The position numbers and the translations under genes are program-made. Below the pieces are notes generated by a model that had not been told where the DNA came from, did not search any database, and worked only from the letters and a program-made list of their open reading frames with translations. 64,000 nucleotides of DNA from Pirellulales bacterium (lineage in GTDB: Bacteria; Planctomycetota; Planctomycetia; Pirellulales; JAEUIK01): assembly GCA_019636335.1 (NCBI GenBank), contig JAHBXR010000004.1, forward strand, positions 62,001 through 126,000. Reading direction: 5' to 3'. This document shows, in pieces, positions 50,546 to 61,039 of the stretch (position 1 is the first letter of the stretch; each line of letters starts with the position of its first letter).

Positions 50546-52576
50546 CTATTCCCACAACTCCATGCGGCGGTCGTTTCGCTGCTGGATCAGACGACGCACC
50601 GGCTCTTCCTGTAGTTTGCCGGCAGGGTCGAACAACAGCTCCGACGAGCACTTCTGCGGATCGAGCGGCACGCGACGTTGCCATCGCTCGAGAGCTCCCT
50701 TGCGGGCCTGCACGCGCGTCGGCAAGGGGCCAACATAGTCGAACGCGAAATCGCGGAATTCATCGTCTTGTTGCAGCGCGCGATGCGCGAGATAGCGCAC
50801 CGGCGAATAAGGATCGACGAGCAACTCGGCCAAGAACGGAGGCATCCACTCCGTCCCCGCGATCTGCCGCGCCGGCTCCCAACCAAAATGCCAGGCGGTC
50901 AAGGCCCGCTGACCGGCATCGCCGCGCAGCAGCCAGCGGAGCGCCGCCGAAGTGGTCCGAGACTCCTCGTCGAGCTGCGGGGCCGGCTGGCCGTACCAGC
51001 TCGTCAGATGCTCCCCCGTCCACTGGAGCGTCTCGTCGAGATGGCACAGATTGCAGGCGTTCGGCCGGCCGTACTTCGTGCTCTCTTCCACGCTCGGGTT
51101 CGTCACCGTGTGCGAGCGGATCCCCTTCATCAGCCCGTACGTCGTGTGGGGCATGTGGCAGTTGTAGCAACGGCTCCCTTCCGAATCGGCCGCATGGTGC
51201 GTGTGCTCCGTCAGCTTCGACTCGTACTCGCCGTGACACTGCAGGCAGGCCTGGTTGCCGTCCATCCCCGCGCCCAACTGGTTCTCTGGCTTCCCTTCGT
51301 GCAGCGAGTGGCAACTGACGCACGACAGGTCGCCGCGTTGATGACAGGCCGTTTCCAAGAGCCCGTTGTATTCCCGACCCGAAACGCGCACCATGCCGTC
51401 GGGCCAGAAGAAGTGGCTGAGCATCTCGGCCGACTGCATCGGGTTGGTCGGCTGCGCCAGATCGGGATCTGCTCCCTGTTCGAGCGCCACCCTTCGCGGA
51501 TTGCGCAATACGAAACGCGTCGAGTCGAGTGGTTGTCCCGGACGAAAGGTGTCTCCCTGACCGTGCCAGTAGTCCTGCTGATCGTGAACCGAGTGGACAC
51601 TGTGGCAGCGTCCGCAGACTTGAGCCGAAGTCTTCGCATCGCATCGTGCCGGATTGATGATCGTCGGATCGGCCACGTCGCTGGCCGGCTTCCGCGGAGC
51701 GTCGAACGCAGCGCCGGCCAGTGCCGTGCCGGCCGCCTCGTGCCTGGCGATGTGCTCCGCCCCCGGACCGTGGCAGGCCTCGCACGCGATGCCCAGTTCG
51801 GCCACGCGCGTCTCGGGTGATCCAACCCCTTGAGCGAGCTTCGGCTGACCGGCTACCGCATGGCACGCCACGCAGACTTCGTTCCAGGCCTGCACCTTGA
51901 GGGGTGCCTCGTACGGCTCGCTGGGGCCGTGCAAGAAGACGTCCGAACGGGGTACCCAGCGAGCCTCGTCGATGAGATAGATGAGCGGCACGGTCACCAG
52001 GCGCTTCGTCTCGGGCCCCTGCACCCAGTAAAGTTGCATGTGGTGCGAGCCGGTCGACATGATCACGCGACGATCGACCTGCGGAGGCTCGCTGGGCAGG
52101 CCCGGACGTCGGTCGGCCGGGGGCGCCTTCATGTCGAGATACCACTCGGGGTCGGGCAGATTGACCCAGAACTCCTCGCCCCGGCGCGAAAGGCGATATT
52201 CGCGTCCCTGGGCCTTCAACACCACATCGTCGAACGGCGCGACGACCGACTCGGGCGAGACGGCCTGCGTCATCGTGCGATGGTAGCTATGGTGCCACGA
52301 CCGAAACTGTTCCTGGTGACACTTCTGGCAGGCCTGCGACGTGACGTAGCCCCCCTCGGTGCGCCGACTGGGGAGCATCTCGGCCTGCGTGAGCGAGGTG
52401 TGATCGCCGATGCGGATCAGACTGTTGACATAGAGCAGCGCGCCCCCCACGATCGCAAGCAGGAGTGCCCCGCCGATCCAAGGTCGCACGCGGCTGGCGC
52501 GCAACCCTGTCATGGGCAGCGCCACCACAATGGCGATCCCGCTTACCAACAGTAATGGCGGCAGAGCGGACCACAT
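50546..52576 (-). CDS. Octaheme c-type cytochrome (copy A)
   Basis: A 676-residue protein. The N-terminus has two membrane helices (PPLLLVSGIAIVVALPMTGL and GGALLLAIVGGALLYVNSLI). Eight heme-binding CxxCH sites follow near residues 82 (CQKCH), 234 (CVACH), 263 (CEACH), 320 (CGRCH), 418 (CVSCH), 443 (CLQCH), 469 (CYNCH) and 507 (CNLCH). Many extra His (GSHHMQLYW, HTHHAADSEG) could be distal ligands. The last 150 residues look HEAT-like (RYLAHRALQQDDEFRDF). It is expected on the outer face of the cytoplasmic membrane, moving electrons; the partner is unknown. It starts 10 bp after the stop of its paralogue, so the two form an operon. Hemes 5-8 lie in a block nearly identical to the paralogue. 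Confidence 0.88.
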   Translation of the reverse strand: MWSALPPLLLVSGIAIVVALPMTGLRASRVRPWIGGALLLAIVGGALLYVNSLIRIGDHTSLTQAEMLPSRRTEGGYVTSQACQKCHQEQFRSWHHSYHRTMTQAVSPESVVAPFDDVVLKAQGREYRLSRRGEEFWVNLPDPEWYLDMKAPPADRRPGLPSEPPQVDRRVIMSTGSHHMQLYWVQGPETKRLVTVPLIYLIDEARWVPRSDVFLHGPSEPYEAPLKVQAWNEVCVACHAVAGQPKLAQGVGSPETRVAELGIACEACHGPGAEHIARHEAAGTALAGAAFDAPRKPASDVADPTIINPARCDAKTSAQVCGRCHSVHSVHDQQDYWHGQGDTFRPGQPLDSTRFVLRNPRRVALEQGADPDLAQPTNPMQSAEMLSHFFWPDGMVRVSGREYNGLLETACHQRGDLSCVSCHSLHEGKPENQLGAGMDGNQACLQCHGEYESKLTEHTHHAADSEGSRCYNCHMPHTTYGLMKGIRSHTVTNPSVEESTKYGRPNACNLCHLDETLQWTGEHLTSWYGQPAPQLDEESRTTSAALRWLLRGDAGQRALTAWHFGWEPARQIAGTEWMPPFLAELLVDPYSPVRYLAHRALQQDDEFRDFAFDYVGPLPTRVQARKGALERWQRRVPLDPQKCSSELLFDPAGKLQEEPVRRLIQQRNDRRMELWE
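50978..51324 (-). repeat. Near-identical 347-nt block, copy 1 (pairs with 53019-53365)
   Basis: Only four differences are seen against 53019-53365, at 50999, 51014, 51119 and 51173, and all are silent. It encodes the residues from CVSCHSLHEG to SWYGQPAP, which are identical in both cytochromes. Flanking sequence is clearly diverged. The pattern implies recent gene conversion or very strong constraint. Confidence 0.88.
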
Positions 52577-52586
52577 CGAGAAACGA

Positions 52587-54629
52587 CTATTCCCAGAGCT
52601 CCAACTTGCGATCGTCGCGCGCGCCGATCGTCTTCCGTACGGCCTCCTCCTGCAGCGTCCCGTCCGGGTTCATCAGCAGGCGCGCCGCGGCCGGTGGCGG
52701 GATCTCGTGGGGAGCGTTTTTCCAGCGTTCAATCATTTGCTCGCGCACGGCAGCACGCTCCTTGAGGGGCGCGACGAAGTCGTAGTCGATCTCTTGGAAA
52801 CCTTCGTTCTTCTTGAGCGCGTGGTAGCTCATATAACGCACGGCGGAATAAGGATCGACGAGCAGCTCGGCCAGAAAGGGGGGCATCCAGTCGGTGCCCG
52901 AGGCCTGCCGCGCCGGTTCCCAGCCGAAATGCCACGCCGCCAAGGCCCGCTGACCGGCATCGCCGCGCAGCAGCCAGCGGAGCGCCGCCGACGTCTGTTT
53001 TTCTTCTTCAAGCAACGTCGGGGCCGGCTGGCCGTACCAACTCGTCAGATGCTCTCCCGTCCACTGGAGCGTCTCGTCGAGATGGCACAGATTGCAGGCG
53101 TTCGGCCGGCCGTACTTCGTGCTCTCTTCCACGCTCGGGTTCGTCACCGTGTGCGAGCGAATCCCCTTCATCAGCCCGTACGTCGTGTGGGGCATGTGGC
53201 AGTTGTAGCAACGACTCCCTTCCGAATCGGCCGCATGGTGCGTGTGCTCCGTCAGCTTCGACTCGTACTCGCCGTGACACTGCAGGCAGGCCTGGTTGCC
53301 GTCCATCCCCGCGCCCAACTGGTTCTCTGGCTTCCCTTCGTGCAGCGAGTGGCAACTGACGCACGCCATGTCACCCCGCTGATAGCAAGGAGACTCGAGC
53401 AAGCCGTTGAAATCGCGACCCGAGACTCGCACCTGTCCATCCGGCCAATAGTAGTGCGACAGAATTGCGGGCAGTTGATATTTGTTCGTCGGACGGACGG
53501 CGTTCGGGTCCGCTCCTGCTTCGAGCGCGATCTGTCGTGGGTCGCGTACGACGAGCCGATTCTCGAATAAGTTCGTGCCCGGCCGAAACGTATCCCCCTG
53601 CCCATGCTTCCAATCGAGCTCGTCCTGGGGATGGCTGATTCCGTGGCACCGTCCGCAGATCTGTGCCGAGGTCTTCGAATCGCAACGGGCGGGGTTGATG
53701 ATTGTCGGGTCGCCTGAACCCGTGCCGCGCTGCGGCGTCGAAGCCGCCTGGTCGGCGCTGGCGAGTTGGCCGGCTTCAGCCTGGCGCTGGGCAACCGTAT
53801 GTACCCGCACGTGCTCTTCGCCTGGGCCGTGGCAGGCTTCGCAGGCAATGCCCAATTCGGCCACGCGTGTATCGGCATGGCCACTCTTTTCGTCGACGCG
53901 CGGTTGCCCGGCCACGGCGTGGCAATTGACGCACACGTCATTCCACGACTGCACGGGCAGGTGATCTTCGTAATACTTGCCTCCCACCAGGAAGACATTC
54001 GCACGAGGGGCCCACCGCTGGTCGTGAATCAGATAGATGATCGGCACGTTGTAGTACCGATTCGTCAAGGGGCTGACCGTCCAATAGAGTTGCATGTGAT
54101 GCGATCCGGTCGACATCACGATGCGGCGATCCACTTGCGGCGCGTCGGTAAGCTTCACCTTGGATTTCGTTTCCTCCGCTTGCCGCGTCAGGATCCATTC
54201 GACGTCGGGCATATTCACCCAGAACTCGTCGCCGCGGCGATAGAAGCGAAACTTGAGTCCTTGGGTTTCAATCTCCGTGTTGTCGAACGGGGCAAGAACC
54301 GTCTCGGGGGTTACCGCCTGCGTCATCGTGCGATGGTAACTGTCGTGCCAACTGTGGAACTGGTCGGCGTGGCAAGACTGGCAGGCCTGCGAGCTGACAT
54401 AGCCCCCTTCGACCCGACGGTCGGGGACCGGTTTCGCCTCGGCCAGATGCGGACCACCCAGAAAGGGGCGCGCGCCAAAGAACAACATTCCTCCCCCTGC
54501 CAGCACCAGCAGCAACGCCAGGAGAGCGATGCGCTTGGAAGGCCACGGAAGTCGCGAACCGGTGGCCGGCAGCGCCGCCACGACGGCGATGCCAACGACC
54601 AGCATCAATTGTGGAAGGATTCCCCCCAT
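52587..54629 (-). CDS. Octaheme c-type cytochrome (copy B)
   Basis: A 680-residue paralogue of copy A and first gene of the operon. Two N-terminal helices (LMLVVGIAVVAALPATGS and IALLALLLVLAGGGMLFFGA) precede eight CxxCH sites in the same order (CQSCH, CVNCH, CEACH, CGRCH, CVSCH, CLQCH, CYNCH, CNLCH). The first four hemes and the tail differ clearly from copy A; an insertion of about 15 residues rich in Ala/Gln (VAQRQAEAGQLASADQAAST) lies between hemes 3 and 4. The C-terminus again has HEAT-like helices (VRYMSYHALKKNEGF). No reductase or quinol oxidase gene is adjacent. The electron acceptor is unknown. Confidence 0.88.
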   Translation of the reverse strand: MGGILPQLMLVVGIAVVAALPATGSRLPWPSKRIALLALLLVLAGGGMLFFGARPFLGGPHLAEAKPVPDRRVEGGYVSSQACQSCHADQFHSWHDSYHRTMTQAVTPETVLAPFDNTEIETQGLKFRFYRRGDEFWVNMPDVEWILTRQAEETKSKVKLTDAPQVDRRIVMSTGSHHMQLYWTVSPLTNRYYNVPIIYLIHDQRWAPRANVFLVGGKYYEDHLPVQSWNDVCVNCHAVAGQPRVDEKSGHADTRVAELGIACEACHGPGEEHVRVHTVAQRQAEAGQLASADQAASTPQRGTGSGDPTIINPARCDSKTSAQICGRCHGISHPQDELDWKHGQGDTFRPGTNLFENRLVVRDPRQIALEAGADPNAVRPTNKYQLPAILSHYYWPDGQVRVSGRDFNGLLESPCYQRGDMACVSCHSLHEGKPENQLGAGMDGNQACLQCHGEYESKLTEHTHHAADSEGSRCYNCHMPHTTYGLMKGIRSHTVTNPSVEESTKYGRPNACNLCHLDETLQWTGEHLTSWYGQPAPTLLEEEKQTSAALRWLLRGDAGQRALAAWHFGWEPARQASGTDWMPPFLAELLVDPYSAVRYMSYHALKKNEGFQEIDYDFVAPLKERAAVREQMIERWKNAPHEIPPPAAARLLMNPDGTLQEEAVRKTIGARDDRKLELWE
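53019..53365 (-). repeat. Near-identical 347-nt block, copy 2 (pairs with 50978-51324)
   Basis: Counterpart of the block in the downstream cytochrome at an offset of 2041. A shorter exact match (52940-52992 with 50899-50951) lies just beside it, separated by a diverged stretch. Confidence 0.88.
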
Positions 54630-55078: not shown

Positions 55079-55107
55079 TTGACCGAGGGTCTTGGGTTCG
55101 GTAGAGT
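55079..55107 (+). promoter_or_regulatory. Promoter of the leuA leader
   Basis: TTGACC (55079-55084) and TAGAGT (55102-55107) are separated by exactly 17 bp. The -35 matches TTGACA in five of six positions and the -10 matches TATAAT in four. Transcription would begin near 55114, about 80 nt before the leader peptide. Confidence 0.55.
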
Positions 55108-55192
55108 CGATAAGCCCTTGAGGCGTCCGGAAATGACCCGAATTGGGTGAATTTCGATCGCCCAAGTCCACAACTGCCTGGGAACGCTTCCC

Positions 55193-55261
55193 GTGTCGCC
55201 ACAAACCCTACTGCCGCTACTTTTGCTGGGCCTAGGGGCCCGGTTTGGGCTTGAGGGTTAA
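55193..55261 (+). CDS. Leucine-rich leader peptide of leuA
   Basis: GTG at 55193, preceded by GGGAA eight bases upstream, opens a 22-codon frame ending at TAA 55259-55261. The sequence begins MSPQTLLPLLLLGLG and has eight Leu in total. Leu codons in order are CTA, CTG, CTA, CTT, TTG, CTG, CTA and CTT. CTA and CTT are rare in this high-GC DNA, so their excess is notable. A terminator follows 33 bp later and leuA starts 255 bp downstream. The arrangement is that of an attenuation control peptide: slow translation at Leu codons when leucyl-tRNA is scarce would alter folding of the transcript. Confidence 0.75.
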   Translation: MSPQTLLPLLLLGLGARFGLEG

Positions 55262-55308
55262 TCCACGGTCGCTTCCTGAAATCGAATGCCACCGAACCCC
55301 GAGGCCCA
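55246..55308 (+). promoter_or_regulatory. Proposed antiterminator of the leuA leader
   Basis: TGGGCTTGAGGGTT (55246-55259) can pair with AACCCCGAGGCCCA (55295-55308), giving 12 of 14 pairs (one wobble, two mismatches). This would occupy the left arm of the terminator. The first segment ends at the leader stop codon, so a ribosome at the stop would mask it. An upstream stretch AAACCCT (55203-55209), at the first Leu codon, can pair with the same segment as a protector. Confidence 0.6.
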
Positions 55309-55331
55309 GCCGGTCTCGGGGTTCTTTTTTT
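55294..55331 (+). terminator. Intrinsic terminator in the leuA leader (attenuator)
   Basis: GAACCCCGAG (55294-55303) and CTCGGGGTTC (55315-55324) form a perfect 10-bp stem with an 11-nt loop, followed by seven T (55325-55331). There is no other plus-strand gene for over 10 kb upstream, so its target is the leuA leader transcript itself. Confidence 0.85.
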
Positions 55332-55401
55332 GCCCGTTCGCCGACTTCCAGCGAACCGGAACGGTAGGGAGTAGGATGTTGATGGCCGTTGAAATCCGAC
55401 C

Positions 55402-55462
55402 GGGGCGACAAGCCCCTTCGAGGGCATGGCTGGTGCTACGAAGGCCGACCAAGAGTCGGCCT
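55402..55462 (+). promoter_or_regulatory. Two further hairpins between attenuator and leuA
   Basis: GGGGC-GACAA-GCCCC (55402-55416) and AGGCCGAC-CAAGA-GTCGGCCT (55442-55462, 8-bp stem) lie in the transcribed region between the terminator and the leuA start. Neither is followed by a U-tract. They may be mRNA stability elements. Confidence 0.4.
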
Positions 55463-55516
55463 GCTCGTCGCGTCGCACCCACCATCGACCCTGTTTAGCC
55501 CGGACCACAAATCATC

Positions 55517-57073
<1,557 letters not shown>

Positions 57074-58435: not shown

Positions 58436-60493
58436 TCAATACTCCCCAATCAGGTAGAACCACGTGTTGGATTCCAGCCCACCCGCATCGGTGACCTTGG
58501 CCGTGATCGACTCGAAAGAATTCTCCGGCAAATGAACCGTGTATGAAAAAGCGCCGTTTTCGTCAGTCGTCGTCGAGTGTCCGGCGAGGAGACCTCCGAA
58601 TTCGACCGTGAGCCCTTCATTCCCTTCGGGGTCGATCACACGTCCAAAGAACGTGTAGATATTGCCCGGTTGAACGTACCACCCTTGTTCATTGCCTGGT
58701 GGCGCCACGATTTTGGGTGGATCGTTCACGGGCTCGACTTGTACTTCGAAGGTCGTGTTGGTCGTAAACCCTAAATTATCGGTGGCACTGATGGTCAGTG
58801 TCGCGCTACCGAATTCGTCGGACGCAAAAGAAATGATCAATTCGCCCGTCACCGGATTGATCTCTACCGAAGAGAAGAGCTGCGAGTTGGTATTCGAGAC
58901 GATTGAATAGCTCAACGACAGACCAGACTGCTGAGCATCGCTGAAGATGGTAGCTAAGCTGATGACGATCGAGTCGGCGTCTTCGTCGACCACAATGTTG
59001 TCGATGCCGTTCGTGGTGGGAAACGTATTGGTCTCGGTCAGCTCGCCCGTCGTCAGATCGGTGAGCGTATCCAGCGGCAAGTCTGCCAACAGCCAATCGG
59101 CGTCTGCGCCCCCCGTCAGGACATCTACCGCGGTATCATTGATCAGCGTCGAGCCGTTGAGATATTTACCATTGTTGGCGCCCCCCGCTTCACCACTGAG
59201 GCGCGCCACGCGCACGTTATAGCTGGCCTCGGAGGTCCATTCCTTGAGAATGTCCGACCAGGCGACTTCCTCGGGCTGACCGAAGCCCCCCTTCCCCCCC
59301 CACAGCAGATCTTCGCCGGCATCGCCCTGCAGCGTGTCGGCGCCCATCCCTCCCACCAACACATCGCGACCGTTGCCACCGTAGAGCACATCGGCGCCAT
59401 CCTGGCCGTGCAGCAGATCGTGACCATCGTTGCCGTAGAGCGTGTCGTTCCCCCCGCCACCGAACAGCACGTTGTCCAACGCGTTGCCGATGATCAGGTC
59501 GGCGCCGCTCGTACCGCGCACATTCTCGAGACCCCGGCTGCTGGATAACGTGATCTTCGTGCCTGCGCTGACCGTCTGCTGACTGGTCGAGCTCAAGTCG
59601 AGCGTAATCGCCGTGCCGAACTCGCCAAAGTCGATGGAATCGTGATCGCTATCGGCGGCTTCGACGATTGTGTCCTCACCCTGCGCAACCCCACGGTAGC
59701 CATAAAAGTCCGATCCTGTGCCACCGATCAGCAGGTCGTTTCCGCCATCGCCGTAGATCGTGTCTCCCTCGGCGCCGTCTCCTCCGTAGATGGTGTCGTC
59801 CCCTTCGCCGCCGTTGAGATAGTCCCCTTCGGGTCCGTCCCCGCCGTGGATCCAGTCGTGACCATCGCCGCCGTCGACGAAATCGATGCCCGAGCCGGCG
59901 TCGATCGAATCGTTGCCGTCTCCTCCGTAGATGCTGTCGTTCCCCTCGCCCCCATCGCTGCTGCTGCCGTATAGAGCCGAGATCGTGTCGTCGCCGGCGC
60001 CGGCGTAAATCAGATCCGCCCCCTTGTGGCCGATGATGAAGTCGGCAAAGCCGCTGCCGGTGATGACGTCGTCTCCCCCGCCTCCGTTCAGCGTGGTGCC
60101 GAGGATCCCGGTGAAGCCATGGGCCGCGGTCACGTCACCGAGATGAATCTTGTCGTTACCGTCGGCGCCCCCCATATAGTTCGTGCCGGCGACATCGATG
60201 AGTTGCACCATGCCGGTCGTCACGCCGGCGGCACTCCCGTTCCAATGGACGACACTGCCCGACTCGTTCTCGACCGAAACATAGCCGCTTCGCGCGCGGA
60301 TAAAGAGCTCGTCGCTCTGCTCAGTGCCTACCACCGACAACTTGCCGAGACTTGCATTCCAGGTGGTGTTGATCGACAGCAGTCGTCGTGACTCGAGTGA
60401 TTCTGCCGTCAGGATCCTTCCGGACGGACGCCTTCGTTGTTTGGTACCGTGTACATAGGTGGCCAATCGTCGCGAGTCACTTCGCAGGTACAT
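58436..60493 (-). CDS. Secreted RTX-type Ca-binding repeat protein
   Basis: A 685-residue protein from ATG 60493, with AGGAGAT six bases upstream. The N-terminus is basic and lacks a standard signal peptide; it has TAESLESRRLLS (about 33-44), an N-terminal motif frequent in large planctomycete secreted proteins. About residues 130-400 hold nonapeptide repeats of the RTX type (GGEGDDTIYGGDGAEGDTIY, GNDTLYGNDGHDLLHG) that bind calcium. The C-terminal part (about 490-685) looks like cadherin/Ig-like beta domains (VEPVNDPPKIVAPPGNEQG). No type I secretion genes are near. An exoprotein or surface role is inferred. Confidence 0.83.
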   Translation of the reverse strand: MYLRSDSRRLATYVHGTKQRRRPSGRILTAESLESRRLLSINTTWNASLGKLSVVGTEQSDELFIRARSGYVSVENESGSVVHWNGSAAGVTTGMVQLIDVAGTNYMGGADGNDKIHLGDVTAAHGFTGILGTTLNGGGGDDVITGSGFADFIIGHKGADLIYAGAGDDTISALYGSSSDGGEGNDSIYGGDGNDSIDAGSGIDFVDGGDGHDWIHGGDGPEGDYLNGGEGDDTIYGGDGAEGDTIYGDGGNDLLIGGTGSDFYGYRGVAQGEDTIVEAADSDHDSIDFGEFGTAITLDLSSTSQQTVSAGTKITLSSSRGLENVRGTSGADLIIGNALDNVLFGGGGNDTLYGNDGHDLLHGQDGADVLYGGNGRDVLVGGMGADTLQGDAGEDLLWGGKGGFGQPEEVAWSDILKEWTSEASYNVRVARLSGEAGGANNGKYLNGSTLINDTAVDVLTGGADADWLLADLPLDTLTDLTTGELTETNTFPTTNGIDNIVVDEDADSIVISLATIFSDAQQSGLSLSYSIVSNTNSQLFSSVEINPVTGELIISFASDEFGSATLTISATDNLGFTTNTTFEVQVEPVNDPPKIVAPPGNEQGWYVQPGNIYTFFGRVIDPEGNEGLTVEFGGLLAGHSTTTDENGAFSYTVHLPENSFESITAKVTDAGGLESNTWFYLIGEY

Positions 60494-61039
60494 GTCAGAT
60501 CTCCTGGCGTGCATGCGCAGCGCGAACCAGGGCAGACAAGACCGCCTGAATGCTCCGCGCGAACGGAATCGATGGAGTGGTCACCGAGGGCCAAAGGGGG
60601 CCCGGCAGGTTGACCGCCGAGGGACTAGATCACCCTCTGCACCTGCCTCGAGTGACGCTGGGGGGTTCGCCGCACGCAGAGATCGGCAAGGTCACAGACC
60701 AAACCGATCGGCGCACAAGGCGCAGCGAACACGGCAAACTCGTCCCAGGACGAGTGCCCATGAGTAGAACTAAACGGACACGCCAAAAACGGCGTTTCGG
60801 AAAACAAGCAACAATAGTGGATGCGCCGTGTACACAATTCGAGCAGGTGTCACGGGAAGCGAGCCCCTCACCGGGACCGCTCCGCCCTAAGGGGCGGGGG
60901 AAGTATCCCTCGGCCTGGGCGGATCGCAGGATGCGCTCCCAAAATCGCGACGTCGGTCGTGATGTTGCGAGCCGTGAGCAGCCTTGCTGCGAACCTGGCG
61001 AGGGGGAAGAGTGCCACGAGGGCGTTCTTTTCCAGGCTG
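60494..61039. other. Intergenic region upstream of the RTX gene
   Basis: About 546 bp between two minus-strand genes. A small perfect hairpin CCGCCC-TAAG-GGGCGG lies at 60882-60897 and could be a terminator without U-tract for the kinase gene, but there is no strong support. No coding feature seen on either strand. Confidence 0.45.

Follow-up and report, generated by a model that had tools for sequence, protein, structure and literature searches.

In Proteobacteria, leu genes are known to be controlled by leader-peptide attenuation: the leuL attenuator of Salmonella and E. coli places a leader with consecutive Leu codons, followed by antiterminator and terminator hairpins, ahead of a leu biosynthetic gene. 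According to a survey from 2010, attenuation by leader peptides was known only in Proteobacteria and Actinobacteria before the Firmicutes case that this survey itself described (PMC2965389). For leu genes, it has been described in Actinobacteria (PMC1262725, PMC4046766) and in Firmicutes (PMC5794164). In the actinobacterial LEU element (Seliverstov et al. 2005), a run of Leu codons pairs with the region just before leuA, and internal structure is enclosed by this pairing (PMC1262725). Corynebacterium glutamicum has leaders at leuA, trpE, ilvB, and aroF, with four Leu codons in the leuA leader and Phe-Tyr-Phe in the leader of aroF, which encodes DAHP synthase (PMC4046766). The peptide of the S. 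aureus ilv-leu attenuator contains Leu (and Ile) codons and is combined with a terminator, and genetic evidence for attenuation was presented (PMC5794164). A paper on leader-gene distances, in which Planctomycetes were included, makes no mention of leuA or leucine (PMC4833913). The open-access literature yielded no attenuator at any amino acid gene of a planctomycete, subscription papers being outside the scope of this search.

The window analyzed here, which is the whole stretch of 64,000 nucleotides from a bacterium of the order Pirellulales, contains a leuA gene that is very probably controlled by a ribosome-mediated transcription attenuator sensing the supply of leucyl-tRNA. This conclusion was reached by comparison and without expression data, and it is based on the parts of the element, their order and conservation, the co-variation of the competing pairing, and the agreement between leader codons and pathway at three genes; the response of the leuA attenuator to leucine in vivo and the direction of this response are inferred. 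The putative attenuator shows the main defining features of the classical system that can be computed, and it would work like that system. It resembles the proteobacterial leu leader (Rfam Leu_leader) in having a leader peptide with Leu codons and alternative hairpins that follow the same logic. However, it differs from that leader in that it lacks an Rfam sequence match, its stop codon lies in the antiterminator arm, the protector pairing (1:2) is weakly conserved, and a second leader follows. A scan of the window with Rfam 15 at gathering thresholds detected no family, including Leu_leader and T-box, and only chance-level matches appeared at a permissive threshold (E up to 5). An earlier note on this DNA had known of no described leuA attenuator in planctomycetes, and none was found in Rfam 15 and the open-access literature, to which our search was limited. 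The S. aureus ilv-leu system is similar in that a leader peptide with Leu codons and a terminator occurs outside Proteobacteria and Actinobacteria, but it belongs to another phylum, its gene is ilvD, and its antiterminator captures the U-tract and not a stem arm (PMC5794164).

Organization of the leuA leader region

The following features make up the first element and its target gene.

55079 to 55107, plus strand: candidate sigma-70-type promoter, TTGACC-N17-TAGAGT (consensus scan, 9 of 12 matches)
55193 to 55261, plus strand: predicted leader peptide 1 (LeuL-like), GTG start, 22 codons, 8 Leu (sequence and Leu-rich frame in relatives)
55236 to 55252, plus strand: possible protector pairing (region 1:2), overlapping the antiterminator 5' arm (local fold)
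55246 to 55259, plus strand: antiterminator 5' arm (region 2), overlapping the stop codon of leader 1 (pairing with the terminator left arm; co-variation)
55294 to 55331, plus strand: intrinsic terminator, perfect 10-bp stem (13 pairs in total) followed by seven T (fold; stem co-variation)
55517 to 57073, plus strand: leuA, 2-isopropylmalate synthase (NCBIfam NF002086 and TIGR00973 above cut-off)

The earlier note had named a promoter, a Leu-rich frame using rare Leu codons, a 14-nt segment overlapping the stop codon and able to pair with the left arm of a terminator, and the terminator itself with its perfect 10-bp stem and seven T, and all of these were found again in the sequence. The promoter hexamers TTGACC and TAGAGT start at 55079 and 55102 with a spacer of 17, and this is the single such site in 921 bp, with 0.2 expected from shuffled sequence. 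The promoter and the GTG start of leader 1 are nevertheless consensus guesses only and unproven, and no obvious ribosome-binding site is located upstream of the GTG. The 22-codon frame from 55193, translated as MSPQTLLPLLLLGLGARFGLEG, agreed to the base with the earlier description; its eight Leu codons comprise three CTA, two CTT, two CTG, and one TTG, the control run extends from 55208 to 55234 with the last CTA at 55232-55234, and the stop codon is at 55259-55261. Translation of leader 1 is inferred from the comparison of sequences and has not been shown. The leuA gene has 40 Leu codons, and CTA, CTT, TTA, and TTG are all absent from these. When all leaders were compared with the leuA genes, CTA and CTT made up 18% and 21% of the Leu codons in the former and 1% and 3% in the latter, and CTA, CTT, and TTG were far commoner in leaders.

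The terminator arms (55294-55303 and 55315-55324) form the perfect 10-bp stem and are followed by TTTTTTT, and in the predicted fold the stem grows to 13 pairs with -26.4 kcal/mol. Region 2 (TGGGCTTGAGGGTT) can pair with 55295-55308 (AACCCCGAGGCCCA) with two mismatches and -20.3 kcal/mol. In the absence of the terminator right arm, the antiterminator (-27.6 kcal/mol) is as stable as the terminator, which fits what a kinetic switch requires. The fold of the full leader on its own favors the terminator, and the switch rests on kinetics. The possible protector pairing has -8.7 kcal/mol and a z of -2.3 at this locus and is weak across loci (mean z -1.1); likewise, a 22-nt hairpin ahead of region 2, tested across loci, had only weak conservation.

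In the proposed mechanism, RNA polymerase would transcribe leader 1 with a ribosome following behind. When charged tRNA-Leu is ample, the ribosome would reach the stop codon and cover region 2, allowing the terminator to form, so that transcription would stop. When leucine is short, the ribosome would wait on the Leu codons of the control run and leave region 2 free. With the right arm of the terminator still unmade, region 2 would pair with the left arm, and polymerase would continue into leuA.

Conservation of the leader and the competing structures

The upstream regions of leuA were gathered from 57 genomes of the family and the order (Pirellulales), and 50 of these regions were usable. A terminator was present in 38 of the 50 regions, and in 36 of these 38 a short Leu-rich frame ended shortly ahead of it, compared with 1.3 expected from shuffling. 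Frames with at least five Leu in eight residues were found within 150 nt ahead of the terminator at 36 of 39 loci versus 0.2 expected from dinucleotide shuffling, and none of this kind was found on the reverse strand of the same leuA loci. The predicted leader-terminator arrangement at leuA is thus more than chance. The stop codon of the leader is located in the antiterminator arm or adjoins it at nearly all loci, as the attenuation mechanism needs, the position of leader 1 and its stop codon in our window being slightly off from most relatives.

Both structures co-varied. In the terminator stem, 7 of the 13 pairs had changed on both sides among 27 aligned loci. For the antiterminator, pairing of region 2 with the terminator left arm from the same locus gave -19.96 kcal/mol, versus -17.61 kcal/mol when the arms were swapped between loci, a difference that was reached in 0 of 20,000 permutations. 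This difference was gone when region 2 was shuffled (20 shuffles; mean -0.13, minimum -0.83), and one reversed-sequence control retained a small residual effect (-0.84, p 0.004), so that the controls were weak or null. It should be noted that the pairing permutation tests were made with no correction for relatedness or common descent. The attenuator reading proposed in the earlier note was accordingly supported in those tests that could be computed and might have refuted it, since the Leu-rich frame and the terminator are both present at related leuA loci and the proposed antiterminator pairing co-varies.

A covariance model (R1) was built from the last eight leader codons through the terminator, and thus starts past nearly all of the Leu codons. 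When the phylum was searched with R1, 26 of the 30 best loci were upstream of leuA on the right strand, 16 of these 26 belonged to a family of another order in the same class that had not been used in training, and nearly all of the leuA loci had Leu-rich frames ending at the predicted place. R1 was found directly upstream of leuA in at least 84 of 136 leuA-bearing Pirellulales genomes, and Lacipirellula limnantheis I41 (L257), for example, carries the element with the leader MLAPNLNSLLLLLLAGGMA. No recognizable element was found in roughly one third of the order, to which most of the families f7 and f2 belong, and therefore the element is not essential for leuA; this partial absence had been missed in the earlier note, as had the second leader and the other two genes described below. 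In other classes, many R1 matches scored lower than about 35 bits and are probably plain terminators.

In one relative, two leuA copies with identical scores form a divergent, inverted pair (G009:C241:16854-20383, L060), and a third copy is on contig C252. Either a recent inverted duplication or an artefact of the assembly may account for the pair.

A predicted second leader upstream of leuA

A second conserved leader frame with a structure of its own, uORF2, lies between the terminator and leuA.

55376 to 55498, plus strand: predicted leader peptide 2 (uORF2), MLMAVEIRPGRQAPSRAWLVLRRPTKSRPARRVAPTIDPV, with the core RAxL(V/A/L)LxxPTxGRP (in-frame conservation)
55421 to 55440, plus strand: segment with the Leu codons of uORF2, 5' side of an outer stem (pairing test with the segment before leuA)
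55442 to 55462, plus strand: hairpin AGGCCGAC-CAAGA-GTCGGCCT inside uORF2 (kept across loci)
55475 to 55493, plus strand: 3' strand of the outer stem, ending 24 nt before leuA (minimum-energy folds)

The dN/dS-like ratio was 0.37 in the uORF2 frame versus 0.61 and 3.2 in the other two frames, and an in-frame ATG is present at 30 of 33 loci, the N-terminus being variable and the core conserved. The invariant Leu codons of uORF2 are mostly TTG, also CTG, CTA, and CTT, and never CTC. Pairing of the Leu-codon segment with the region before leuA was stronger within loci (-19.7 kcal/mol) than after swapping (-16.9 kcal/mol; 0 of 10,000), with null reversed controls. Of 28 minimum-energy folds, 27 contained the outer stem, which was less frequent when the downstream sequence was shuffled or swapped. 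Matched pairing with the same pre-leuA region, though smaller in effect, was also obtained for a segment 18-40 nt upstream of the uORF2 motif, which leaves the limits of the outer stem uncertain. The hairpin sits directly after the invariant Leu codons and, with a mean of -16.3 kcal/mol, has been kept at nearly all of 36 loci, also where its sequence has changed (L005, L008, L010, L234), and on its own it had little co-variation in the aligned set. Pairing of this hairpin or its 3' arm with the pre-leuA region was tested and rejected. The possibility that the second element is a non-coding RNA or a protein-binding hairpin was dropped, because the analysis of codon positions indicated a coding sequence. 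The element occurs once in the source genome, where the other match to the pattern has two mismatches, and in the phylum-wide search, the matches beyond the order were near chance, at most about 30 bits compared with mostly 41-64 bits inside it.

The planctomycete uORF2 resembles the actinobacterial LEU element in its plan. The LEU element, however, pairs with the Shine-Dalgarno box of leuA and can form a pseudoknot (PMC1262725), while the partner of uORF2 ends 24 nt before leuA and is mostly upstream of the leuA start; no Shine-Dalgarno box was identified. Also unlike the LEU element, uORF2 encloses one hairpin, has a conserved peptide core (RAxLVLxxPT), and is preceded by a classical attenuator. 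We infer that a ribosome stalled on the uORF2 Leu codons would open the outer stem and thereby increase leuA translation. uORF2 probably adds a second, translational (or Rho-dependent) control by leucine. Rho-dependent control or nascent-chain arrest are alternatives for its action, and the conserved peptide might be a nascent-chain arrest sequence.

It could be argued that translational attenuation by uORF2 is the main control of leuA and that the upstream terminator is secondary, since uORF2 is coding and under purifying selection, a segment ahead of leuA pairs and co-varies with its Leu codons, and a few loci combine a weak first element with a strong uORF2 (G022). We consider this unlikely, because uORF2 was found in only 31 of 146 genomes (E 1e-4) and is limited to part of Pirellulales, whereas the terminator element is present in at least 84 of 136 genomes and in a second order, and because the pairing of the 18-40 nt upstream segment means that the exact base stem is not fixed.

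The same architecture at cimA and DAHP synthase genes

The weaker R1 matches, with no selection by gene, were mostly ahead of two other genes, those for citramalate synthase (cimA, TIGR00977) and DAHP synthase (NF006421). The predicted cimA leaders are exemplified by ...VRIIIIAGQRRS and ...VIIIAEVRP, and those of DAHP synthase by MRSIQTTYYWFYFPPHGRGVGGGL, with YYWFYF-type leaders in relatives. In orthologue sets obtained by protein search, Ile-rich frames were located ahead of the terminator at 15 of 26 cimA loci (fewer than 0.05 expected), and Phe/Tyr/Trp-rich frames at 25 of 27 DAHP synthase loci (0.2 expected). The antiterminator pairing co-varied at both cimA (p 0.001) and DAHP synthase (0 of 10,000). 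The source genome itself has an attenuator-like arrangement of an Ile-codon leader, ...GIIRAISEITQEVRP, and a terminator at cimA (L151, G000:C2:162900-166500), and the leader MSSHVTYRPSFIFSFTRYTSGAGGGV and a terminator upstream of DAHP synthase (L225, G000:C33:18770). At ilvB and trpE, which served as negative controls, terminators were found at 2 of 30 loci each and leaders at none.

Hence, the codon identity of the predicted leaders is found to follow the end product of the pathway at three genes. This match is the strongest evidence for ribosome-mediated attenuation and makes transcription attenuation of this type well supported, though not shown experimentally. The same results bear on the other explanations for the element at leuA. 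Short, hydrophobic, Leu-rich peptides can be membrane peptides, and the Leu-rich frame could encode a conserved small membrane protein with a function of its own, the terminator merely ending its mRNA. This seems very improbable when leader 1 is conserved across loci only in its Leu content and in the position of its end and stop codon, and not in its sequence, when rare Leu codons are preferred, when the stop region and the terminator co-vary in their pairing, and when the architecture elsewhere carries Ile or Phe/Tyr/Trp codons fitting the downstream pathway. There is similarly very little to recommend a riboswitch, T-box, or protein-binding leader that controls the terminator and in which the short frame is incidental; a terminator with an alternative pairing would suit any such switch, but the Rfam 15 scans of the window described above yielded no family at threshold, and a model based on an RNA ligand does not predict that codon identity tracks the pathway at three genes. 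Finally, intrinsic terminators are usually found after genes, but that this one belongs to an upstream plus-strand gene and has no role in leuA regulation can practically be dismissed, because the leuA region is preceded by a divergent minus-strand gene (52587-54629), so that the terminator cannot belong to a plus-strand gene ahead of it, and because the R1 element follows an amino-acid-specific frame and, in 84 genomes of the order, is upstream of the LeuA match by a median distance of about 170 nt.

Ribosome-mediated attenuation would thus extend over two or more orders of one class of planctomycetes and act at three separate genes, each with leader codons that correspond to its own end product. 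The enzymes concerned, encoded by leuA, cimA, and the DAHP synthase gene, are all committed-step enzymes. Similarly to C. glutamicum, the planctomycetes appear to control the two steps of leuA and DAHP synthase, but unlike the actinobacterium, they cover cimA (Ile) as well and not ilvB or trpE. The novelty of this system lies in the second leader placed in tandem and in the attenuator at cimA; the cimA leader would provide direct control of the citramalate route by isoleucine, and leuA, with its second leader, is a case in which the stacking of two leucine sensors on one gene can be tested. Its occurrence at several genes would make attenuation a general strategy of regulation in this phylum, about whose amino acid regulation little is known, and it speaks for transcription-translation coupling in these planctomycete cells. 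Taken jointly, the idea that many Pirellulales leuA genes have stacked transcriptional and translational leucine sensors and that the phylum has a three-gene attenuator regulon (Leu, Ile, Phe/Tyr/Trp) remains tentative, and we hold its chance of being correct to be slightly below even.

Flanking genes

Two multihaem cytochrome paralogues are arranged in tandem on the minus strand of the window (50546-52576 and 52587-54629). They share a near-identical block (about 51015-51324 and 53056-53365) with exact matches of 151 bp and 104 bp, and are otherwise diverged, suggesting gene conversion. On the other side of leuA, also on the minus strand, the gene at 58436-60514 encodes a protein of 692 aa that contains several RTX-type calcium-binding repeats (PF00353) and weakly matches a bacterial Ig domain.
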